A DNA stretch of 64,000 bases, from contig NC_009464.1 of the NCBI RefSeq assembly GCF_000063445.1, forward strand, positions 2,852,001-2,916,000, written 5' to 3'. The DNA is from Methanocella arvoryzae MRE50. GTDB lineage: Archaea > Halobacteriota > Methanocellia > Methanocellales > Methanocellaceae. The notes under the pieces are model-generated. The model saw only the letters and a program-made list of their open reading frames with translations. It ran no database searches and was not told the origin of the DNA. Below, in pieces: positions 5,098 to 29,107 of this stretch. The position numbers and the translations under genes were made by a program. The stretch's first letter is position 1, and every line of letters begins with the position of its first letter.

Positions 5098-7454
5098 AAC
5101 GGGGCAAAGCAGGCGTCTTCATCTGTCACTGCGGCGACAATATTTCGGGCACCGTGGATATCGGTGCCGTGAAGCGGGCGATGGAGCTGGAAGGGGCGGA
5201 CTGTGTAGAAGACTTCCCCTATATGTGCTCGATAGCGGGACAGGCGCTGATCCACGAAAAAGCCAGAGCGATAGGCCTTGACCGGATCGTGGTGGCGGCG
5301 TGCTCTCCCGGAGTGCACGAGCGCACCTTCCAGGCCTGTGCTTCCGAGGCAGGCATCAACCCCTATCTGGTCGATATCGCAAACATCAGAGAACAGTGCT
5401 CCTGGGTGCCCGGCGAAAACCAGACCGGGCGGGCCATCGATATCATAAGATCCTCTCTGTACGCGGTCCGGCAGAAGCAGCCGCTCGACAAAGCCTCAAT
5501 AAAAGTCCGTAAAAGCGTGCTGGTCATCGGCGGCGGCATATCGGGTATCACGGCCTCGCTGGCCCTGGCCCGGCACGGCATAAAGGTGTACCTTGCGGAG
5601 AAGGCGACCACAATCGGCGGCAATATGGTAAAAATCGGTAAAGTATTCTCACCTGATCGGCTGACCGAGGAGTGTGCGTTATGCTCGCTGGCCCCTCTCA
5701 TGGGAGAAGTAGCCAGGAACGACCGCATCAATATCATGACACAGTCAAGGGTGACCGATCTTAGAGGGCACCCGGGTGATTTCAGGGTTACCATAGAAAC
5801 CGGGCCGGTCTTCATCGATCCCGACAAGTGCGTATCCTGCGGCAAATGCTCGGCTGCCTGTAGCGTGCGGGTGCCTGATGAGTGGAACGCCGGCCTGTCG
5901 AGCAGAAAGGCTGTCTACAAGCCTTTTGCTCAGGCAGTGCCTGGCACCTACTCGATCGATCCGGACGCGTGTAAGAGGTGTGGCAAATGTGCGCGTGAAT
6001 GCGACGCCAGAGCCATCAACCTGAACCGGAAGGCCAGGAAGAAAACCCTTCGGGCCGGGGCAATCATCGTGGCCACCGGCCACCGGGAGATGGACCCGTC
6101 CGGCAAGCATGAGCTGGGCTACGGTCAATTCCCGGACGTGCTGACCCAGACCGAGCTGGCCCGGCTGCTGGCCATTAACGGCCCGACAAAAGGCCGGCTG
6201 GAAGTGCCTTCCACTGGTAAGCGCCCCAGGCGGATTGTCATGGTCCAGTGCGTGGGGTCGAGAGATGAAAAGCCTGGCTCGATTCCTTACTGCTCTAAAG
6301 TCTGCTGCATGACCGCCTTAAAACACGCCCATTACGTCTCGGAGCACTTCCCGGGGACGGAGATCTACATCTGCTATACTGACATCAGAGCGCCGGGCAC
6401 TTATGAAAACTACTACCGGGAAGTTCAGAAGAAAGGCGTGAAGTTCATCCGGGGCAGGGTGGGCGAGATCATCCGCGCCGGAGCCGATGACAGCGACGGC
6501 CTGCTGGTCCGGGTAGAGGACACGCTCGGCAGCGGCACGCTTGAGCTTGAGAGTGACATGGTCGTGCTATCATGCGCTTTAGAGCCTTCTCCAGGCACCC
6601 TCCAGGCGGCCAGCGCTCTCGGAATCGGCCTTTCGCCCGAGCTCTTCATCCGGGAGAAGCACCCGAAGCTCGAGCCTGCCACCACTACTTCCCGGGGGAT
6701 CTTCGTATGCGGGACCGCCCAGGGTGCCAAGGATATTACTGAGTCGATACTCCAGGCTCGGGCAGCAGCATCAAAGGCATCAGAGCTGGTGAGCGCCAGA
6801 TCTCTGGCAGTCGAGCCGAAGTTTGCGGTAGTGGATCCAGAGCGGTGTACACGGTGTGGCATATGCCTCAAACTGTGCCCCTACGGGGCTCCCTACCTGA
6901 ACGGAAAAGTGGCTATCGACCCCCTCTCCTGCATCGGCCTCGGCGGCTGCATCTCCCGCTGCCCGGAACACGCCATCACGATGCCGTCGTGCAGCGATGA
7001 GGAACTGTTCGCCCGCATCGACGGATGCCTCGGCCCGGGCGCCGACATCATTGCCTTCCTGGACGAAAACATCGGCTACGTGGCAGCAGACAACGCCGGT
7101 GTCAACCGGATTCCTTACCCCGAAGGGGTGCGTATCATCAAGGTCCCGTCCATCATGCGGCTTGAAGCCAAACATCTTGTATACGCACTCGAGAAAGGCG
7201 CCAGAGGCGTGTTCCTGGGCGACGGCACGGTGAATTCGGCCAACGGCGCCATAAGGGCTAACGTCTCGAAGCGGGTGGGTGAGCTAAGGGCTGCCGTGGC
7301 AGCCTGCGGCTTCCGCCCGGAGCAGATCACTTACTACGAGGCCTACCTGCCCCACTTCCGGGGCCTCGCTTCCCGGCTCAGCCAGTTTTCGGCCAGCCTG
7401 GGGTCACATGCCCCGGAAGGCCGGGTCGATCAGGCAACCGGTGTCAGCTTTTAG
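5094..7454 (+). CDS. hdrA: heterodisulfide reductase subunit A with degenerate MvhD-like C-terminus
   Basis: Flavin subunit that bifurcates electrons between ferredoxin and the heterodisulfide. Visible in order: N-terminal HdrA domain (1-130), FAD dinucleotide motif GGGISG (146-151), two 4Fe-4S motifs (Cys 246/249/252/256 and 293/296/299/303), the second half of the flavin fold, then a ferredoxin pair. The first C-terminal motif is complete (Cys 585/588/591/595). The second reads CIGLGGCISRC (613-623), with Leu where the second Cys is expected. Residues from about 640 resemble MvhD, as in HdrA2 fusions of Methanosarcina, but lack its 2Fe-2S cysteines. Start is GTG, overlapping hdrB. No hydrogenase or formate dehydrogenase gene is adjacent. 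Confidence 0.92.
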   Translation: MKRGKAGVFICHCGDNISGTVDIGAVKRAMELEGADCVEDFPYMCSIAGQALIHEKARAIGLDRIVVAACSPGVHERTFQACASEAGINPYLVDIANIREQCSWVPGENQTGRAIDIIRSSLYAVRQKQPLDKASIKVRKSVLVIGGGISGITASLALARHGIKVYLAEKATTIGGNMVKIGKVFSPDRLTEECALCSLAPLMGEVARNDRINIMTQSRVTDLRGHPGDFRVTIETGPVFIDPDKCVSCGKCSAACSVRVPDEWNAGLSSRKAVYKPFAQAVPGTYSIDPDACKRCGKCARECDARAINLNRKARKKTLRAGAIIVATGHREMDPSGKHELGYGQFPDVLTQTELARLLAINGPTKGRLEVPSTGKRPRRIVMVQCVGSRDEKPGSIPYCSKVCCMTALKHAHYVSEHFPGTEIYICYTDIRAPGTYENYYREVQKKGVKFIRGRVGEIIRAGADDSDGLLVRVEDTLGSGTLELESDMVVLSCALEPSPGTLQAASALGIGLSPELFIREKHPKLEPATTTSRGIFVCGTAQGAKDITESILQARAAASKASELVSARSLAVEPKFAVVDPERCTRCGICLKLCPYGAPYLNGKVAIDPLSCIGLGGCISRCPEHAITMPSCSDEELFARIDGCLGPGADIIAFLDENIGYVAADNAGVNRIPYPEGVRIIKVPSIMRLEAKHLVYALEKGARGVFLGDGTVNSANGAIRANVSKRVGELRAAVAACGFRPEQITYYEAYLPHFRGLASRLSQFSASLGSHAPEGRVDQATGVSF

Positions 7455-7630
7455 CCCGCTACTTCCTCCGCCCATAGCACTATAATAGCTCCCCAGGCGG
7501 ATTGTCGCAAGCATAAATATCTCACCGTATGCCATTTTACCGCAGGAGAGAAGATTTTTATCATAATACTGAATATAGACTAAACGTCCTGCTGATCATT
7601 TTACTATGCTCATCATGGCGGAGAATGGAA

Positions 7631-8077
7631 ATGGCTGAACCTGACTTCGTTATCACTCTTATCGGATCAAAGCTTGCAGTTCCCGGCACAGAGTTTATCT
7701 ATCGTGGCCCTGCCGGCGAATGTGAGAAGTGCAAGCTTAAAAATATCTGCCTCAACCTGGATAAGAATAAGAAGTACCGCATCGTGGGCTTAAGGAATGG
7801 CATGGAGCTGGACTGCCTGGTCCACGATACCGGCGTCAAGGCAGTAGAAGTAGTGGCCTGTCCGATCATCGCAGTCATGGAGTCCCGCAAAGCCTTCAAC
7901 GGCTCCCGGATGACCTACGAGGCGCCCGAATGCGACGAGTCGTGCCTGAACTTCGCCCTCTGCCACCCGGAAGGCATTGCCACGGGGGAAAAGTACACCA
8001 TCTGCGAAGTCTTCAGCGAAGAAGTAGGGCCCTGCAAAAAAGGCCTGACCTTGAAAAAGGTCGAGCTCCGGCCTTAA
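7631..8077 (+). CDS. UPF0179 family protein
   Basis: About 148 residues, with a conserved archaeal pattern: TLIGSKLAVPG at the N-terminus, then paired cysteines CEKCKLKNIC and later Cys residues (CPII, CDESC, CHPEG). The Cys spacing suggests a metal site, but the family has no assigned function. ATG 7631 is chosen because GGAG at 7620-7623 lies 7 nt before it. ATG 7625 is too close to that site, and the longer open frame from 7529 lacks one. It follows hdrA by 176 nt and probably has its own promoter. Confidence 0.75.
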   Translation: MAEPDFVITLIGSKLAVPGTEFIYRGPAGECEKCKLKNICLNLDKNKKYRIVGLRNGMELDCLVHDTGVKAVEVVACPIIAVMESRKAFNGSRMTYEAPECDESCLNFALCHPEGIATGEKYTICEVFSEEVGPCKKGLTLKKVELRP

Positions 8078-20876: not shown

Positions 20877-21305
20877 ATGGCAGATTTCAAGCTAGTAGTT
20901 TCCGACCCCAAGACCGGCAAGGCCTACAACGTGGATGTCACCGGCCCCAGGGTCAACAAGTTCATCGGCAAGCCTATCGGTTCCGAGATCGACGGCGAGA
21001 CCGCCGGCCTTCCCGGATACAAGCTGATCATCACCGGCGGCTCTGACAAGGATGGCATTCCTATGAGGGGCGATATCCCCGGCCAGGTCCGCAGAAGGGT
21101 GCTCGTTTCGGGCGGCATCGGCTACCACCCGACAGAAAACGGCATGAGGAGGAGAAAACTGCTCCGCGGCGACGAGATCAGCGCTGAGATTGTGCAGGTC
21201 AACGCCACTGTGGCGGCTTACGGCGAGAAGCCTCTCGACGAGCTGGCCCCGAAGAAGGAAAAGAAGGAAGGCGCTGCCGGCGGCAGGGCTCCTGCTAAGA
21301 AATAA
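20877..21305 (+). CDS. rps6e: 30S ribosomal protein S6e
   Basis: 142 residues. MADFKLVVSDPKTGKAY begins the S6e fold and GMRRRKLLRGDEIS is the conserved basic stretch. The C-terminus is Lys/Ala/Gly-rich, as in other archaeal S6e proteins. It is a single-gene transcript with its own promoter and a stem-loop immediately after the stop codon. Confidence 0.95.
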   Translation: MADFKLVVSDPKTGKAYNVDVTGPRVNKFIGKPIGSEIDGETAGLPGYKLIITGGSDKDGIPMRGDIPGQVRRRVLVSGGIGYHPTENGMRRRKLLRGDEISAEIVQVNATVAAYGEKPLDELAPKKEKKEGAAGGRAPAKK

Positions 21306-21761: not shown

Positions 21762-21955
21762 TTCAAATATCCGCTGAATATGTACTGATGTCGGACGAGG
21801 GGAGTGTGGTTTTTTTCACAATTGTGCCGGTGTATCCGTATCGTGTAATCTTTCCGGAACTCTGTGATTTATGTTTCGAACGAGATCAATTTGAGCGGTA
21901 TCTGTTGCTGCTTATTAGCGATCATTTGCAGGAATTATTCACCGCAAACACTGAT

Positions 21956-21969
21956 AATATATTTAATTA
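21956..21969 (+). promoter_or_regulatory. array promoter 1 (AATATATTTAATTA)
   Basis: TATA box starting 55 nt before ATG 22011. It is followed by GGAGG at 21999-22003, 7 nt from the ATG. It is a member of the promoter set shared by the secreted-protein array. Confidence 0.7.
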
Positions 21970-22010
21970 TATATCAATAACATTGATTTGCTTATTGAGG
22001 AGGGTAGTAA

Positions 22011-22406
22011 ATGAGTAACATACTGAAATACGGAATACTCTTTGTACTGGCAGTTGTCGTCGCATCTCTGATTGTGCCTGCCGGTGCGAACCTGGTCGGA
22101 ACTGCTTTTGGTTTCCCGACGATTGTGCAGAGCGGTACTACAACGGCATTTAACAGGGATACGGCAGCTGCTACGGACACTGAGGCTTTCGCCCTTTCGT
22201 TCGCTAACACTGGCACGCCCCTGCTCGACGGATGCCCTGTAACTCCTGGCTTCACGCTTGGTTTCCCGACGATCGCTCAGACTGTAGCTCAGACCCAGGT
22301 GCTGACTCACTGCGACTTTGCGCAGACCACTGAGAACGCTGCATTCTCCTATCCGTTCGTCGGTGTCGGCGGCGTTGCAATCCCGGGCTTCGGCTTCGGC
22401 TTCTAA
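22011..22406 (+). CDS. secreted GFPT-repeat protein, copy 1
   Basis: 131 residues, not a recognised family. Residues 1-26 form a signal peptide (hydrophobic ILFVLAVVVASLIV, cleavage probably after PAGA). The mature part has two related halves. The first begins GFPTIVQSGTTTAF and the second GFPTIAQTVAQTQ; each is followed by a Thr/Glu/Ala segment and a hydrophobic strand (AFALSFAN; AAFSYPFVG). The C-terminus is Gly/Phe-rich (IPGFGFGF). Two Cys residues could form a disulfide outside the cell. No anchor is seen, so it is secreted or assembled on the surface. The copy at 22731 is almost identical. Confidence 0.8.
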   Translation: MSNILKYGILFVLAVVVASLIVPAGANLVGTAFGFPTIVQSGTTTAFNRDTAAATDTEAFALSFANTGTPLLDGCPVTPGFTLGFPTIAQTVAQTQVLTHCDFAQTTENAAFSYPFVGVGGVAIPGFGFGF

Positions 22407-22417
22407 ACCAGATGACT

Positions 22418-22434
22418 GGGGGCTACACGCCTCC
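22418..22434 (+). terminator. stem-loop after secreted copy 1
   Basis: GGGGGC pairs with GCCTCC (one G-T) around a TACAC loop, followed by TACTTTTC. The same hairpin follows copy 2. Confidence 0.65.
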
Positions 22435-22676
22435 TACTTTTCAATTTTTTAACATTACTTCTCCTGCCTTGCTTCTCTTAAGAAACGAAACCGGGTAATA
22501 CTCACCCTGGGTCCTTCCCGGTGATATGCCCTGCCCTTGACAACGCTATTGTATATCAGGCATCTTTTCCTCTCTCTCATCCATCGCACCTGTACTCCGA
22601 CCATATATATTCCTATGCCGGGCTCTACCTGCCTTTTATCGCCTTGAAACCTGTAAGATTCGTTTTTATATTTGAC

Positions 22677-22688
22677 AATATATTAATT
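22677..22688 (+). promoter_or_regulatory. array promoter 2 (AATATATTAATT)
   Basis: TATA box starting 54 nt before ATG 22731, with TTGAGGAGGGTAGT directly before the start codon, as at copies 1 and 3. The upstream spacer 22435-22676 holds nothing else recognisable. Confidence 0.7.
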
Positions 22689-22730
22689 GACGATTGCCAA
22701 TCTACTTTTAATAATTGAGGAGGGTAGTAT

Positions 22731-23126
22731 ATGAGTAAGGTGATTAAGTACGGAATACTCTTTGTACTGGCAGTGGTCGTCGCATCTCTGATTGTGCCTG
22801 CCGGTGCGAACCTGGTCGGAACTGCTTTTGGTTTCCCGACGATTGTGCAGAGCGGTACTACAACGGCATTTAACAGGGATACGGCAGCTGCTACGGACAC
22901 TGAGGCTTTCGCCCTTTCGTTCGCTAACACTGGCACGCCCCTGCTCGACGGATGCCCTGTAACTCCTGGCTTCACGCTTGGTTTCCCGACGATCGCTCAG
23001 ACTGTAGCTCAGACCCAGGTGCTGACTCACTGCGACTTTGCGCAGACCACTGAGAACGCTGCATTCTCCTATCCGTTCGTCGGTGTCGGCGGCGTTGCAA
23101 TCCCGGGCTTCGGCTTCGGCTTCTAA
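22731..23126 (+). CDS. secreted GFPT-repeat protein, copy 2
   Basis: 131 residues, differing from copy 1 only within the first few residues (MSKVIKYG instead of MSNILKYG). From 22749 to 23127 the DNA matches 22029-22407 with a single substitution, at 22775. The spacers and the first codons differ, so the match is confined to the coding region. This points to gene conversion or strong recent constraint rather than a simple fresh tandem copy. Signal peptide, two-fold repeat and Gly/Phe-rich end are as in copy 1. Confidence 0.8.
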   Translation: MSKVIKYGILFVLAVVVASLIVPAGANLVGTAFGFPTIVQSGTTTAFNRDTAAATDTEAFALSFANTGTPLLDGCPVTPGFTLGFPTIAQTVAQTQVLTHCDFAQTTENAAFSYPFVGVGGVAIPGFGFGF

Positions 23127-23137
23127 ATAGTTTGAAG

Positions 23138-23154
23138 GGGGGCTACACGCCTCC
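23138..23154 (+). terminator. stem-loop after secreted copy 2
   Basis: GGGGGC-TACAC-GCCTCC, the same hairpin as after copy 1, followed by TTCCTTTAAATTTTTATTT. Confidence 0.65.
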
Positions 23155-23306
23155 TTCCTTTAAATTTTTATTTCTGCTTATAGACAGGCCCTGACTTCGG
23201 CTGTTCTTGACTTTGACATATCATGGTTTCGACAGGTCCTGACTGGCCGATTCTATAGGCGTATTTAACCTGCCTCACTATGAGAATATTCGTTTTATTA
23301 TGGACC

Positions 23307-23318
23307 AATATATTAATT
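23307..23318 (+). promoter_or_regulatory. array promoter 3 (AATATATTAATT)
   Basis: TATA box starting 56 nt before ATG 23363, with the shared TTGAGGAGGGTAGT leader end. Confidence 0.7.
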
Positions 23319-23362
23319 CAAGCCCATATAACATAGAAACAATCATTGAGGAGGGTAGTATA

Positions 23363-23740
23363 ATGGTTAGAAAACTCTTTACCGTAGTTTTGCTGGCGCT
23401 GGCCGCCATTCTCATATCCATTCCGGCAAGTGCGTCTCTTGTCCCGATGTCCTGGGGCTTCCCAACGCTGGTGCAGGATCACACGCTGACCGCCTTTGAA
23501 AACAACCTTGCCGAGTCCTCGGAAAGTCAGTCTGCAGCAGTTTCCTTCCCGACGTCCGGAGGCTCTTTCTGCGACACCGGCAGCCTCTTCGGGTCTGCTT
23601 TCCCGACTATCACCCAGTCCGGGGCCAGGGATGATTTCCTGATGAGCAACAAGTTCATGCAGGAAAAGCAATTCATGGCCTTCGCATACCCGTACCTGAG
23701 CATCGGCGGCTCTCCGGTACCGTCTATGGGATTCCTGTAA
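23363..23740 (+). CDS. secreted GFPT-repeat protein, diverged paralogue
   Basis: 125 residues. The signal peptide (KLFTVVLLALAAILISI) probably ends after SASA. The mature protein repeats the plan of copies 1 and 2: GFPTLVQDHTLTAF, then AFPTITQSGARDDF, each followed by an acidic/polar stretch and a hydrophobic strand (AAVSFPTSG; FMAFAYPYLSIGG). It ends PSMGFL. One Cys remains in the mature part. ATG 23363 is set by GGAGGG 9 nt upstream and by the promoter. The 63 nt of open frame before it is leader RNA. Confidence 0.75.
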   Translation: MVRKLFTVVLLALAAILISIPASASLVPMSWGFPTLVQDHTLTAFENNLAESSESQSAAVSFPTSGGSFCDTGSLFGSAFPTITQSGARDDFLMSNKFMQEKQFMAFAYPYLSIGGSPVPSMGFL

Positions 23741-23976
23741 GTGGGGTGCGCTGTAGTCTGGCCACGGCAGGCCGGCATGCGCTGCGATCCGGCAGCGTAC
23801 ACCTCTCCTTTTACTTATTTTTCATATGTGCCTCTGTTACACCTCAGTGCTACACCTCTGCTCCGGGCAATGTGTCGTTCCTGTCACGTGTTACCCGGCA
23901 TGACATATCTGGCTATTTCGTCCTGAGGCTGTTATAATAGATTTGAAAGCGGTTCGATTTCGTTATAACACATAAT

Positions 23977-23988
23977 AATATATTTATT
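23977..23988 (+). promoter_or_regulatory. array promoter 4 (AATATATTTATT)
   Basis: TATA box starting 54 nt before ATG 24031. The ribosome-binding site here is GGGGGGATTGT, unlike the TTGAGGAGGGTAGT of neighbours. Confidence 0.7.
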
Positions 23989-24030
23989 ATCGTTTCCTTT
24001 ACTTAATCAATGTCAAGTAGGGGGGATTGT

Positions 24031-24810
24031 ATGAGTTCGATAAAGAAATTTGCCGTATTATCGATGCTGGCTGTTGTCCTCATCGCGTTCAACATGCCGG
24101 CATCTGCTCAGATCGGTATTGGATCCGCTACCGCTGCGACAACCGCAGCGTCGTCGCTGACCTCCTCCGTTGCCAGTACCGCCACAGCGGCTGGATTCGG
24201 TGCGTTCGGCGGCTTCGGATTCCCGTTCAACTGGGGCTTCTCCCGGTTTGGAATAGGTGCGTTCCCGTTCAACTGGGTACTTGGTGCCGGCTTTGGTCCG
24301 TTCGGCCTGAACTGGGGCCAGTTTAGCCCGTGCTTCGGAGCCGGGTCGTTCTTCAGCCCGTGCTTCCTTGGTGGCGCTTGCTTCCAGGGTCTGCCCTTTA
24401 TCCTGGGCTCTCCGGGTGGCTGTGTCGGGCCTGGCTTTGGTGTGACTCCGTGGATGTTCGGTCTCGGTGGCTGCGTCAAGAGTGCTCCGCTGTTCTTCGG
24501 GGCTCATGGCTTCGGGTTCCCGTTCACGCTCGGTGGCATCGCCGCTTCGCTGATTCCGCCGGTATGTGCACCACCTGTACCCGCGATTCCCGCGTGCCTG
24601 CCTGCAGCGGCAGTCTGTCAGGGTCTGCCCTTTATCCTGGGCTCTCCGGGTGGCTGTGTCGGGCCTGGCTTTGGTGTGACTCCGTGGATGTTCGGTCTCG
24701 GTGGCTGCGTCAAGAGTGCTCCGCTGTTCTTCGGGGCTCATGGCTTCGGGTTCCCGTTCACGCTCGGTGGCATCGCCGCTTCGCTGATCCCGGCCCCGAC
24801 CCTGTGCTGA
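24031..24810 (+). CDS. secreted Gly/Phe/Cys-rich protein with internal duplication
   Basis: 259 residues, no known family. The signal peptide ends near PASAQ. An Ala/Ser/Thr-rich stretch follows, then Gly-Phe-rich sequence with repeated FPFNWG motifs. Two nearly identical blocks of about 57 residues (starting QGLPFILGSPGG) are joined by a Pro/Cys-rich linker. Each block includes PWMFGLGGC and GFGFPFTLGG. The mature protein has many Cys residues and very few charges, suggesting an extracellular, cross-linked, hydrophobic structure. The minus-strand open frame opposite is a shadow. ATG 24031 is set by the shared promoter and GGGGGG site. Confidence 0.75.
   Translation: MSSIKKFAVLSMLAVVLIAFNMPASAQIGIGSATAATTAASSLTSSVASTATAAGFGAFGGFGFPFNWGFSRFGIGAFPFNWVLGAGFGPFGLNWGQFSPCFGAGSFFSPCFLGGACFQGLPFILGSPGGCVGPGFGVTPWMFGLGGCVKSAPLFFGAHGFGFPFTLGGIAASLIPPVCAPPVPAIPACLPAAAVCQGLPFILGSPGGCVGPGFGVTPWMFGLGGCVKSAPLFFGAHGFGFPFTLGGIAASLIPAPTLC
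24385..24788 (+). repeat. 170-bp direct repeat within the Gly/Phe/Cys-rich gene
   Basis: 24385-24554 and 24619-24788 appear identical base for base, with a 64-bp unique linker between them. The reading frame is kept. Perfect identity at synonymous sites indicates recent duplication or ongoing homogenisation. Confidence 0.85.
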
Positions 24811-24837
24811 GCAGGAGTATTCAGGGGTCACTCAAGT

Positions 24838-24856
24838 CCCGGCCCTCCGGGTCGGG
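24838..24856 (+). terminator. stem-loop after the Gly/Phe/Cys-rich gene
   Basis: CCCGGCCC pairs with GGGTCGGG (one G-T) around TCC. A second small GATCA/TGATC pairing and a T-run (CTTTTTTAG) follow. The rest of 24857-25056 holds no gene. Confidence 0.65.
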
Positions 24857-25056
24857 GATCAAGTGATCCCTCGAAGACTTTTTTAGCCAGATTGCTGTAC
24901 TGACGGAAAAATCTTTTACCGGACAATATCCGGAAATTATCGTTTAAAATTGTCATCAATTGGATATAATGCCTCTTTTCCTTTCAAAATGGCCTCATAT
25001 CTCGCATTTTATGGAATCATTCTGGAATAAGCACGATTTTCGATAATTTCCTATCC

Positions 25057-25069
25057 TAAATTATTTATT
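25057..25069 (+). promoter_or_regulatory. array promoter 5 (TAAATTATTTATT)
   Basis: The most divergent of the shared TATA boxes, starting 50 nt before the start codon at 25107. Confidence 0.55.
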
Positions 25070-25106
25070 ACCACTTACGAAGATTCATTTTGCAGGAGGG
25101 AATGAT

Positions 25107-25298
25107 GTGGAGATGAAAAAGTTAGCCATATTCGTTCTTCTCGTGCTGGCCGCTCTGGTATTCGCTCTGCCCGCTGCCGCCTGGTGGGGCGGCTGGGGCT
25201 GGGGTGGCTGGGGCTGGGGCGGCTGGGGTCTCGGCACATGGTGGCCCACTTGGGGCCTGAGCTGGGGCTGGCCGGCCTGGGGCGGCTGGTGGTGGTAA
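25107..25298 (+). CDS. secreted tryptophan/glycine-rich peptide
   Basis: 63 residues. Residues 1-25 are a signal peptide (KLAIFVLLVLAALVFAL, probably cleaved after PAAA). The mature part is about 38 residues, of which 16 are Trp and most of the others Gly, with WGWGG units and a WWW end. It has no charged residue. The GTG start at 25107 is 7 nt after AGGAGG (25094-25099); ATG 25113 would give the same peptide less two residues. No family is recognised. A structural or surface-coating role is only a guess. It belongs to the array by position, strand, promoter type and signal peptide. Confidence 0.7.
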   Translation: MEMKKLAIFVLLVLAALVFALPAAAWWGGWGWGGWGWGGWGLGTWWPTWGLSWGWPAWGGWWW

Positions 25299-25356
25299 GC
25301 CGACCACCTAGCAACTCAGACCTATGTCACACGAGAAGATGAGGGAAGATTGGATG

Positions 25357-25418
25357 GTAAGCGCTTAACGGCGCTTACTTCCCATTTCCTTAAACGAAGT
25401 GCTCTGGAAATGGGAAGT
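25357..25418 (+). terminator. two stem-loops after the Trp-rich gene
   Basis: GTAAGCGC (25357-25364) pairs perfectly with GCGCTTAC (25371-25378). ACTTCCCATTTCC (25377-25389) pairs perfectly with its inverse at 25406-25418. The two stems share two bases, so they may be alternatives. The rest of 25299-25623 holds no gene. Confidence 0.6.
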
Positions 25419-25623
25419 CGAGTTCTATTGTATTATCGCTCGTTTCTCATGGGGTCGCTACTCGCAGATCATTATCCGCAGATCACTGTCCGTCACGTCG
25501 TCTTTTAATACGCTGCGTATCCTGAGCAGCAATCGCTGGTCCGGTGCAGAAGTATGGCCTGTCTCTCTTTATCATATACTAATATTGCCGCCGCAGGCGG
25601 CTTTATTCGCTCGATAAGCTACA

Positions 25624-25635
25624 AATATATTTATT
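25624..25635 (+). promoter_or_regulatory. array promoter 6 (AATATATTTATT)
   Basis: TATA box starting 53 nt before ATG 25677, with the shared TTGAGGAGGGTAGT leader end. Confidence 0.7.
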
Positions 25636-25676
25636 ATGATTTAATAAATTCGTACATACTATTGAGGAGGGTAGTT

Positions 25677-26138
25677 ATGGATAAGACGGGCGTAATGATC
25701 TTGCTGCTGGCTGTAGCTCTTGCTGCATGCGCCGTGCCTGCAGGGGCGTTCATCGGCACCGGGATCACCTTGAACAAGCAAATCGGCGATACTATTAATT
25801 TTAACATTGGCAAGCGCGTGGGCGCTGCCGGCACAGCCCTTGGCATTGCCGACATGGACCTCGGAGTCACCTGGGGAGTAAACTACGATCTCGCCTCTAT
25901 GGCGGGCTACCCCTATGGCTATGGTGGCGTCGGGGCTGTTACTGCAGGCGATGTCGGGTATGTCCTCGGCCTGAGTATGGATGAAACGCATGGCGCGGCT
26001 TTCGATGGCTCGGCATTCGGTGTGCCACTGGCAGAGCAGAGCCTTACCAGCACGAAGTTCAACAACGTCATAGCCAACAATAACCACTTCGAGAATACGC
26101 AGGTGGCCCTGCCTTTTACTGGCTTCCCGGTATTTTAG
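25677..26138 (+). CDS. secreted array protein, diverged GFPT-type
   Basis: 153 residues. The signal peptide (VMILLLAVALAACAV) probably ends after PAGA, the same end as in copies 1 and 2. The mature sequence has an N-terminal half (ITLNKQIGDTINFNIG) and a C-terminal half (FGVPLAEQSLTSTKF, then FENTQVALPFTGFPVF). Both follow the Pro/Gln/Thr/Phe spacing of the GFPT repeats more loosely. A Gly/Tyr-rich linker (AGYPYGYGGVG) separates them. ATG 25677 lies directly after GAGGAGGGTAGTT. No function is known. Confidence 0.72.
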   Translation: MDKTGVMILLLAVALAACAVPAGAFIGTGITLNKQIGDTINFNIGKRVGAAGTALGIADMDLGVTWGVNYDLASMAGYPYGYGGVGAVTAGDVGYVLGLSMDETHGAAFDGSAFGVPLAEQSLTSTKFNNVIANNNHFENTQVALPFTGFPVF

Positions 26139-26183
26139 GCCTGCCATACGTATTTTTTTATTTTTCTGCTCAGAGCACTCGAT

Positions 26184-26295
26184 AATATATTATATGAGCT
26201 TGCCGTTGACACTGCTCTATTTCTATAGTATTGTAGATATGCCTGCGTTTCGCCCCTATTGCAGCGCCACGTCTTTTTCATCCATTTTTCTATAG
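26184..26295 (+). other. orphan array-type promoter with an 18-codon ORF
   Basis: AATATATTATAT at 26184-26195 resembles the array promoters. An ATG at 26239, 55 nt from the start of this box, opens an 18-residue frame ending at 26295, but there is no ribosome-binding site or signal peptide. It may be a decayed array member or coincidence. The rest of the 26139-26499 spacer holds nothing recognisable. Confidence 0.3.
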
Positions 26296-26499
26296 TTTTC
26301 GTATCGCCTGTGGGATAGAATAGCCATTCACTCCGATACCCGCCGTGTATTTGACCTCTGTATTGCAAATCAAGCCTATTTTCGGTCTTATTGTAACTCG
26401 TTGCTTATTATTGTCTTTTATTTTAACAATTAGCTCTAAATATTACCCAGAATGCGTTAAAATACTTCAGAACGGTTACATTTCGTATTTTTAAATAAT

Positions 26500-26511
26500 A
26501 ATATATTTATT
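26500..26511 (+). promoter_or_regulatory. array promoter 7 (AATATATTTATT)
   Basis: TATA box starting 54 nt before ATG 26554. The ribosome-binding site is CGGAGGTGTAGTT. Confidence 0.7.
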
Positions 26512-26553
26512 TTGTATAGTTAGACATAACATTGCAGTTTCGGAGGTGTAGTT

Positions 26554-27306
26554 ATGAAAATGGCAAGTAAAATTACAGTAGCAGCAATTGTAGCTCTCGC
26601 TGCATTGCTGGTTACGACACCCGCTTTTGCTCAGTTCGGGCTCGGCGGCGCTTGTGGTATTGGAGCAGGATTAGGAGCACCTATCGGTCTGGGAGGAGCA
26701 TGCGGACCCTGCGGTGCACCAGTGGCATACGGGCCCCCGCAGGATTGCATTGCACAGATCTACTGCAACATTCCTGTCACGTCCCAGATCCCGGTAACAG
26801 TCCCGGCTACCGTTCCTCAGCAGGTACCCATTACGGTCCCTGTCACGAGCTTCGCGCCTGTGACTGTTCCCAAGGCAGTTATAGTCCCTGAGACTATCCC
26901 TGTCCCGGTAGTTACTCCGGCAGTTACCTCGACCACTGTCCCGTGCACTGTACCCGTTCCGACCACAGTGCCCGTGACCTCGATGATCCCGCAGGTGACC
27001 ACCGTTCCGCTCGGCAGTGCCTGTGGAGCAGCTATCCCTGCTGCAGCACCCTGTGCACCGGCTGCCGCAGCTAACCCCTGCGCTCCCGGTATCGGTGCAG
27101 GCATCGGTACTGCCGGCCTGGGCACTGGACTCGGCTACGGCCTCGGTGCAGGCGGTCTCAGCGGATTCGGCCTCGGAACCAGCCTGGGCACCGGCCTGGG
27201 CACCAGCCAGTTCGGCCTGGGTATGAACCGCCCGCTGGCCACTGCCCCGTCCATGGCTACCAGCATGCCTGCAACCACGACGGCAGCTCCGGCATCAACC
27301 ACTTAA
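26554..27306 (+). CDS. secreted protein with Val-Pro repeats and Gly-rich flanks
   Basis: 250 residues, no known family. The signal peptide ends near PAFAQ. A Gly/Ala/Cys-rich segment follows (GIGAGLGAPIGLGG). Residues about 72-150 form an irregular repeat of Pro-Val/Ile-Thr-Val units such as IPVTVPATVP and VPITVPVT. Then comes an Ala/Pro/Cys-rich segment, a Gly/Leu-rich segment (GLGTGLGYGLGAGG) and a Thr/Ala/Ser-rich tail that could be glycosylated. The protein is almost uncharged. Alternating Pro-Val-Thr suggests an extended or beta-type fibrous structure, which is inference. GGAGGTG precedes ATG 26554. Confidence 0.75.
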   Translation: MKMASKITVAAIVALAALLVTTPAFAQFGLGGACGIGAGLGAPIGLGGACGPCGAPVAYGPPQDCIAQIYCNIPVTSQIPVTVPATVPQQVPITVPVTSFAPVTVPKAVIVPETIPVPVVTPAVTSTTVPCTVPVPTTVPVTSMIPQVTTVPLGSACGAAIPAAAPCAPAAAANPCAPGIGAGIGTAGLGTGLGYGLGAGGLSGFGLGTSLGTGLGTSQFGLGMNRPLATAPSMATSMPATTTAAPASTT

Positions 27307-27340
27307 GCCAGCAGAAAATATACGCATAGGTTGGGAATCA

Positions 27341-27377
27341 GTCAACGGATGATTGACGGGCTGGAGACTCTCTCCAG
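27341..27377 (+). terminator. paired small stem-loops after the Val-Pro repeat gene
   Basis: GTCAA/TTGAC (27341-27357) and CTGGAG/CTCCAG (27361-27377) stems are followed by pyrimidine-rich sequence. Nothing else is seen in the spacer up to the promoter at 27584. Confidence 0.5.
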
Positions 27378-27583
27378 TTCGTTTCAGTCTTCCTTTTGGG
27401 GAATCTTTTACCCTCCTTTTTACAACGGTTTCTAATGATTGGCATGGGCTACTAAATGTGCTGTCTTGACGCCTGTGTATTATTCCATCAGTAAAAAACC
27501 GTAAAACGGGCTATTTATAGTTAGTTTGGTTATTTATGCCTTTTTTTCTAATTCTGACGCTTGTTATCGTTACTTCGGCTGAT

Positions 27584-27595
27584 AATATATTTATT
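27584..27595 (+). promoter_or_regulatory. array promoter 8 (AATATATTTATT)
   Basis: TATA box, preceded by GAT, starting 52 nt before ATG 27636. The open frame upstream of 27636 runs through it and is therefore not coding. Confidence 0.7.
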
Positions 27596-27635
27596 CGACG
27601 GTGCATACCTTCTCTTGATGTTGGACGGGTGTTGC

Positions 27636-28277
27636 ATGCTCAGGTATACGTCATTCGTTGTCTGTGCTCTGCTCTTGCTGACGGCCACGTTTCCTCAGGC
27701 CTCCGCGAGCAGTTTCGCTAACGTGAATATGTACGGGTTTCCGATGACCATGGGCGTCGGGGGTACCGGCGCAGCAGGCATCCCTGGCGAGAGTTATACT
27801 TATACTAACGACGGTCTCGATGTTTCTGACGTCATGTCCCGATATGGTATCATATCCAGCTCGATATCGTCTGGAGCTGATCCCACTTCAGTAAACGGCT
27901 TCGTAAGCCCTTATTATAACGGGATCTCGCTGGGCGTGAATTTCGGCTACCCGACGGCGAGCCACGACGCGGCTACTGCTGCATTCGCCAAAGACATGGC
28001 ATACGAAGCCGATCTTGATAATGCGTTCATCGCCTTTCCCGGCATAGGCGTGGGCTCTATGGGTCTCAGCTCCCCGACGGTGTCCAGCAACAGGGCGAGC
28101 ATCAAGTACGCCGAAAGCATCAAGTTCCAGCTCACCACTGAGAGCGATACCCTGGATCTGGGAGGATTCTATTCCCCGCTAGGGCTGGGGCTCGGCTATG
28201 GCAGCGTGGGTGTGTTTGGCAGCACCAGCATGGCCAACGGCGGGCTTGGAATGCCGTTTTATTTTGGCACCGCATAG
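27636..28277 (+). CDS. secreted GFPT-type protein, long member
   Basis: 213 residues. The signal peptide (SFVVCALLLLTATF) probably ends after ASAS. After an N-terminal MYGFPMTMG segment, residues from about 110 carry GYPTASHDAATAAF followed by acidic sequence and the strand AFIAFPGIGVGSMG. These match the GFPT...TAF unit and its trailing strand in the proteins at 22011 and 23363. The C-terminus is Gly-rich (LGLGLGYGS). The gene ends 23 nt before the MscS gene and may be transcribed with it. ATG 27636 is fixed by the promoter. The GACGGGTGTTGC before it is a weak ribosome-binding site. Confidence 0.7.
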   Translation: MLRYTSFVVCALLLLTATFPQASASSFANVNMYGFPMTMGVGGTGAAGIPGESYTYTNDGLDVSDVMSRYGIISSSISSGADPTSVNGFVSPYYNGISLGVNFGYPTASHDAATAAFAKDMAYEADLDNAFIAFPGIGVGSMGLSSPTVSSNRASIKYAESIKFQLTTESDTLDLGGFYSPLGLGLGYGSVGVFGSTSMANGGLGMPFYFGTA

Positions 28278-28300: not shown

Positions 28301-29107
28301 ATGTTCCAGTCCACAAGCCCGGCGGACGCAACTACTCAGGCAGCTCTCAATCTCGTCGAGTTCTTCTACAGTAACTGGAACAAGATCCTGCTGGCCATTG
28401 CCATCCTCATCATAGCGTTAGTAGTCATCAACTTCCTGAAGATCGCCCTGGCCCAGATTGCCCGGGACTATAAGCTGCCGCCTAAGCTGCTACGGTTTCT
28501 TAATACTGTAGTTACCTATGGGACTCTCATACTCGCCATCGTCAATATCCTGGCAGTCTTCGACATCCATCTGTACTCGCTTATCGTGAGCCTGGGGCTG
28601 ATCAGCGCCGTGATCGTCCTGGGGTCGCAACTCGTCATATCAAATCTGCTGGGCGGCACAATCGTATACATCGAGAAGCCGTTCGAGATAGACGACGTGA
28701 TTAAGGTCGGGGAAAATACCGGTGTCGTGGAGGGCATCAGCTTCAGGTCGACGACAATGAGGGGCCTGAATGGGCTGGTGATCACGATACCAAACTCCAC
28801 GTACCTGACCACGCCCATCACGAATTATACCCGGACCCGGCAGTACCTGGTAAAACTACCTTTTACCATGCCCCGGAACGTCGATATGTCCGGGTTAATC
28901 GACAGGCTCCGGTCAGAGGCGTCGTCCATACCCGGCTTTTCCTCAGGAAAGGGCGAAACCCTCTACAAGATGGGCATCAGTAAGGACAACGTGGACTACG
29001 AGCTCCATTTCTGGATATCGGACCCCAGGGTCTCCGACGGTGCCCGGTCCCGGATCGTCGACATCATCGGGCAGTTCCTGCCCACAAGTGATAAAGCTGG
29101 TATATGA
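28301..29107 (+). CDS. MscS family mechanosensitive channel
   Basis: 268 residues. Three hydrophobic segments lie in the first 110 residues (KILLAIAILIIALVVINFL; GTLILAIVNILAVF; IVSLGLISAVIVLGSQLV), the last including the Gly/Ala-rich pore helix. The beta domain follows, with YIEKPFEIDDVIKV and VITIPNSTYLTTPITNYTR. It gates to release solutes on osmotic downshock. GGGGAG lies 9 nt before the ATG. The 23-nt gap to the last secreted-array gene suggests co-transcription, so the channel may be tied to the same surface programme. Confidence 0.9.
   Translation: MFQSTSPADATTQAALNLVEFFYSNWNKILLAIAILIIALVVINFLKIALAQIARDYKLPPKLLRFLNTVVTYGTLILAIVNILAVFDIHLYSLIVSLGLISAVIVLGSQLVISNLLGGTIVYIEKPFEIDDVIKVGENTGVVEGISFRSTTMRGLNGLVITIPNSTYLTTPITNYTRTRQYLVKLPFTMPRNVDMSGLIDRLRSEASSIPGFSSGKGETLYKMGISKDNVDYELHFWISDPRVSDGARSRIVDIIGQFLPTSDKAGI

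Follow-up and report, generated by a model that had tools for sequence, protein, structure and literature searches.

The closest working analogues of the locus described here are the archaeal sheath (SH) proteins of Methanospirillum and Methanothrix (PMC10593813, PMC11576556). Neighbouring SH genes can be up to 100% identical and are clustered near housekeeping genes (PMC11576556). The SH core comprises two six-stranded antiparallel β-sheets (12 strands), SH proteins lacking extra domains span 150–350 aa, and the reported taxa are Methanotrichales, families of the Methanomicrobiales, Thermofilales and ANME-1, with Methanocellales not among them. A second analogy is provided by the chaplins and rodlins of Streptomyces (PMC5314377), a small, co-produced set of secreted proteins with tandem near-identical members that forms a hydrophobic surface material. 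In the related Methanosarcinales, a secreted surface protein is represented by the S-layer family PF07752.

The array analysed here lies in a 64-kb stretch of M. arvoryzae DNA (the window) and consists of eight consecutive + strand genes, P1 to P8, which are arranged head to tail at positions 22011–28277 (Table 1). Like the SH genes, it encodes secreted-type proteins in tandem, near-identical copies close to housekeeping genes, with several variants per genome. The array proteins carry the export signal peptide of SH proteins and form clusters of near-identical neighbours, although the latter are common to many structural proteins and hence not diagnostic. However, P1 (131 aa, 105 mature) and P3 (125 aa) are shorter than the SH range, and a regulon in which several unrelated families share a promoter is not described in the SH literature. 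The AlphaFold model of mature P1 (6-sequence alignment, pLDDT 48.6) displays two long strands and is too poor to be used, as is that of mature P8 (2-sequence alignment, pLDDT 27.8); the alignments drew exclusively on window sequences and one further locus. Membership of the array proteins in the SH family is not supported.

The likeness to chaplins and rodlins is an analogy only, given the different domain of life and the lack of any Pfam match for the array proteins; functional amyloid families of the curli and chaplin type gave no array match at E≤1 in Pfam-A. PF07752 does not match the array proteins either, and none of the four Methanocella genomes contains this family, with a positive control in M. 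acetivorans. With this family absent, the main surface-layer protein of the four genomes is not obvious. No paper describing surface proteins of Methanocellales was found among the open-access literature. Co-regulated secreted structural proteins have precedents in other organisms; what is new in the array is the protein families themselves.

Gene array and protein families

Table 1. Features of the array, its surroundings and the unlinked gene P9. Positions refer to the window unless a locus is named.
Feature	Position	Strand	Remarks
tRNA	113–207	−	95 bases; matched by Rfam, missed by ARAGORN; probably intron-containing
rpS6e	20877–21305		upstream flank; named from its sequence
P1 promoter	21938–21967	+	TTCACC-N12-AATATATTTAAT, 55 nt before start codon; TTCG part divergent
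Leader/ribosome-binding site	21995–22008 (P1 copy)	+	TTGAGGAGGGTAGT; common to P1, P2, P3, P6
P1 gene	22011–22406	+	secreted; two copies of ~35-residue GFPT-Q-F-E module
P2 promoter	22659–22688	+	TTCGTT-N12-AATATATTAATT, exact match
P2 gene	22731–23126	+	tandem duplicate of P1; all 105 mature codons identical to those of P1
P3 promoter	23289–23318	+	exact match
P3 gene	23363–23740	+	diverged P1-family member; 125 aa
P4 promoter	23959–23988	+	exact match
P4 gene	24031–24810	+	Gly/Phe/Pro-rich; 11 Cys in mature part; internal 78-residue duplication
P5 promoter box	55 nt upstream of P5	+	weaker version, 10/12
P5 gene	25113–25298	+	alternative GTG start possible at 25107
P6 promoter	25606–25635	+	exact match
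P6 gene	25677–26138	+	secreted; probably one module near C-terminus
P7 promoter	26482–26511	+	one mismatch
P7 gene	26554–27306	+	secreted; PVTVP repeats, Gly-rich tail; 9 Cys in mature part
P8 promoter	27566–27595	+	one mismatch
P8 gene	27636–28277	+	secreted; both modules of P1 family present
MscS-type channel	28301–29107		downstream flank; Pfam MS_channel, E 4.6e-20
P9 gene	L066:4178–4624 = G000:C1:628181–628624	−	array promoter in all four genomes

Eight consecutive genes with signal peptides had been proposed by a sequence-only reading of this stretch, and this proposal is confirmed. All eight proteins start with a Sec-type signal peptide, in which a short basic segment precedes the hydrophobic core and the end is of the A-x-A type, with cleavage contexts PAGA, PASA, PAAA, PAFA and QASA. 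A strict signal-peptide rule selects 8/8 array genes compared with 2/47 other plausible open reading frames in the window. The mature parts, in most members 100–230 residues long, display neither an N-glycosylation sequon nor a clear anchor segment; the most hydrophobic mature stretch, located in P4, reaches a Kyte-Doolittle value of 1.72 but is Pro- and Cys-rich. The earlier description of the proteins as uncharged applies to P4, P5 and P7, which are almost devoid of charged residues (0–1.8% DEKR), but not to P1/P2 (6.7%) nor to P3, P6 and P8 (10–11%, net acidic). Mature P5 has 38 residues including 16 Trp and not a single charged one, and its content of ~41% tryptophan is unusual in itself. 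Codon adaptation of the array genes is average (0.44–0.62, compared with 0.67–0.76 for ribosomal proteins), so that bulk production finds no support.

The leader TTGAGGAGGGTAGT has four matches compared with 0.31 expected by chance, and its 12-base core followed by ATG occurs four times genome-wide, every time within the array. Terminators of their own had been assigned to several genes; only the stem-loops after P1 and P2 look convincing, both as part of the duplicated block. The 13 terminator-like sites detected compare with 7.8 ± 3.1 by chance.

P1 consists of two tandem modules of ~35 residues each, with the approximate pattern FGFPTIVQ-x6-AF..DTA.A.D.E...I.FP. Both halves align by profile with E 2.3e-7 and a score of 32.7, compared with a maximum of 20.0 among 100 column-shuffled controls. 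P8 likewise has both modules (hhalign 96.9%, E 1.6e-10; genome scan with the P1 profile, E 1.8e-8). The module is common to P1, P2, P3 and P8. P6 matches it with a probability of only 41%, yet in the same register, and probably carries one module of this type. The array therefore does not consist of eight unrelated proteins, since P1 and P2 are identical in their mature parts and have homologues in P3 and P8. P4, P5, P7 and P9 seem, as far as can be told, to represent separate families. P4 and P9 were rejected as relatives of the module, since their matches are confined to the signal peptide or to 14 columns. P1 cysteines are not conserved in M. paludicola.

The view that none of the proteins belongs to a recognised family still stands. 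Searches of Pfam and NCBIfam with P1 and P3 to P8 (P2 being nearly identical to P1) gave chance-level matches only, as did PHROGs searches with six array proteins, and the PDB sequence search gave nothing meaningful. Homology to enzymes, which would have spoken against a non-enzymatic role, was found neither in the profile libraries nor among PDB sequences.

P7 and its paralogues carry VTVPKQVIVPEQ-like repeats and have no match in Pfam. Similar Val-Pro repeats are known from the alveolin/articulin-type proteins of protists, which are charge-rich constituents of the intracellular membrane skeleton; in contrast, P7 is of the secreted type.

Beyond the array, dispersed P1-like genes, exported proteins of ~290–400 aa and one β-propeller fusion carry the P1-type module. 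The latter, an exported M. paludicola protein (L037:3955–5295, − strand), combines two P1-type modules, a Pro-Thr linker and a β-propeller of the YNCE/lactonase type. The exported ~290–400 aa proteins with a P1-like module (L029:5700–6569 and 6910–7782, − strand; L032, L044, L047 and L049) are a second Methanocella family, to which no role is assigned; several of them have a C-terminal half with many Asn-X-Ser/Thr sites.

Promoter design and regulon

Alignment of 39 upstream regions revealed a promoter design in which TTCG(T/C)T begins 18 nt upstream of an AT-rich box, AATATATTWATT, called TATA-like from its sequence alone. In 33/39 regions the box is located 52–56 nt before the start codon. 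With up to three mismatches allowed, TTCGYT-N12-AATATATTWATT occurs seven times in the window, always within the array, compared with 0.09 expected matches. Together with the weaker version upstream of P5, each gene thus has its own promoter, as had been suggested. The "common promoter" named alongside is to be understood as a shared design, which is not one promoter but is repeated before each gene.

The motif derived from the array alone was used to scan the four genomes. At up to one mismatch, 24 sites were obtained, which correspond to 19 array genes, four P9 genes and one P7 paralogue. P9, which occurs once per genome and is not linked to the array, encodes a small secreted protein, and the four P9 genes are mutual orthologues. 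At two mismatches, unrelated sites appear alongside a P7 paralogue and a P1-family gene; since the reversed-pattern control at up to two mismatches gave 19 matches compared with 38 for the real motif, two-mismatch sites are unreliable on their own. The promoter is missing from several P1-like genes located outside the array. Because sites with up to one mismatch fall only at array genes, P9 and one P7 paralogue, the array and P9 appear to constitute a regulon. The idea of a single programme is strongly supported by the array in four genomes, by the shared promoter and by the ninth gene found through it.

Two P7 paralogues (L098:4342–4989 and L099:4209–5048) combine the array promoter with VTVPKQVIVPEQ-type repeats; further paralogues at G000:C1:530983 and 2198867 have no close promoter match. 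The start codon of P9 seems to be ATT in M. paludicola (L097, near 4808) and is ATG in the other species. Downstream of P9, a winged-helix gene is located in two of the four genomes; as a candidate regulator it is a weak lead, since it is seen in these two only.

Conservation and copy homogenisation

The comparison covered four Methanocellia genomes, including M. arvoryzae, M. paludicola (G003) and Methanocella sp. PtaU1.Bin125 (G001). A syntenic array is present in all of them, with order and orientation of the eight families kept and rpS6e adjacent every time. Between M. arvoryzae and G001, dN/dS is 0.10–0.27 for P1 to P7, similar to the flanking MscS (0.16) and S6e (0.14) genes; P8, in which dS is saturated, has a pN/pS of 0.33. 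Where computable, the array genes are under purifying selection. Since selection acts at the codon level, the frames represent translated genes, in line with the sequence-only reading.

The P1/P3-family profile matches 4/394 Halobacteriota genomes, which are the four Methanocellia, and the P7 profile finds the same four and none of the ~390 others. A scan of the genome collection with P7 matched a single genome, G001, and relatives of P1, P7 or P8 were absent from the viral contigs and phages searched.

A neighbouring P1 pair with identical mature proteins is present in 3/4 genomes. From codon 27 onwards, pS within these pairs is 0, 0.012 and 0.036, and the signal-peptide codons differ more. 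The P1 copies of M. paludicola are more diverged (84–91% identity). This pattern looks like gene conversion between neighbouring copies. Homogenised copies are often seen in multi-copy structural subunits but are not proof of such a role. The internal duplication of P4 is found in three genomes, and G001 has a single unit.

Proposed role

The array proteins are probably subunits of an extracellular or cell-surface protein material, and the array would then, with reasonable likelihood, represent the core of a Methanocellales-specific regulon for such a material. The suggestion of a material instead of enzymes fits the composition, the repeats, the homogenised copies and the lack of anchors, and is upheld here at this strength. 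The low charge of P4, P5 and P7, the richness in Gly, aromatic residues, Pro and Val, the repeats, the cysteines of P4 and P7, the missing anchors and the homogenised P1 copies all point to self-assembly outside the cell or at its surface. The fusion of the module to a β-propeller in an exported protein and the absence of any enzyme family also count in favour; average codon adaptation, the unusable AlphaFold models and the lack of conservation of the P1 cysteines in M. paludicola count against it.

For the regulator, the actual secretion, the assembly and the role of each member we infer the following scheme. A single activator, or one promoter-selective TFB/TBP as a candidate, would act through the TTCGTT element, and the shared promoter (TTCGTT, 12 nt, AATATATTWATT, ~53 nt before the start) would switch on at least nine units, P1 to P8 and P9. 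The products would be exported via Sec, lose the signal peptide at A-x-A and, having no membrane anchor and few charges, assemble outside the cell. The multi-copy two-module protein P1/P2 could serve as the bulk subunit with P3, P8 and P6 as its variants, the Cys-rich P4 and P7 as disulphide-linked or elastic components and the Trp-rich P5 as a small hydrophobic part. It is unlikely that these proteins form the main surface layer of Methanocellales or a large part of it, as a multi-component, repeat-built protein wall with its own promoter class that stands in for the S-layer family of related methanogens, which is absent here. Cells of M. conradii lyse in 0.5% SDS and no sheath was described for them (PMC3328440), which argues against a tough sheath in that species.

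Contact or adhesion factors would mediate aggregation or attachment to syntrophic partners, roots or minerals and would be produced under certain conditions only, not as a coat on every cell. Such a role would be in keeping with the dedicated promoter, the β-propeller fusion and the average codon use, which perhaps reflects conditional or modest expression. However, the array proteins lack a recognised binding domain, and the low-complexity P4, P5 and P7 resemble material more than receptors, and this explanation is considered rather unlikely. Quite unlikely are envelope stress factors, that is, secreted protectants against desiccation and oxygen instead of structural parts: the soils inhabited by Methanocella dry out and are aerated (PMC12904285, PMC3105065) and the genes belong to one regulon, but no known stress family is represented and homogenised multi-copy subunits fit a polymer better. 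A material produced as a stress response would fall under both this explanation and the preferred one.

Sets of antimicrobial or signalling peptides are likewise small, secreted and co-regulated, and P5 is Gly/Trp-rich. Such a function is nevertheless highly improbable, with mature parts of 100–230 residues in most members, no immunity, processing or dedicated transport gene in the interior of the array, and a set and order that are constant in four genomes under purifying selection, as opposed to toxins, which usually turn over. The low complexity of P4, P5 and P7 might even suggest chance or decayed open frames, an explanation of vanishing probability that is refuted by the interspecies dN/dS values and by the starts, leaders and promoters conserved in all four genomes.

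Methanocellales are major methane producers of rice fields. A conserved regulon of at least nine secreted proteins without known relatives provides a defined gene set for questions about their cell cover, their aggregation with syntrophic partners or their survival of drying and oxygen in soil. Moreover, the clear promoter element of these archaea, with its fixed spacing, offers a handle for finding its regulator.
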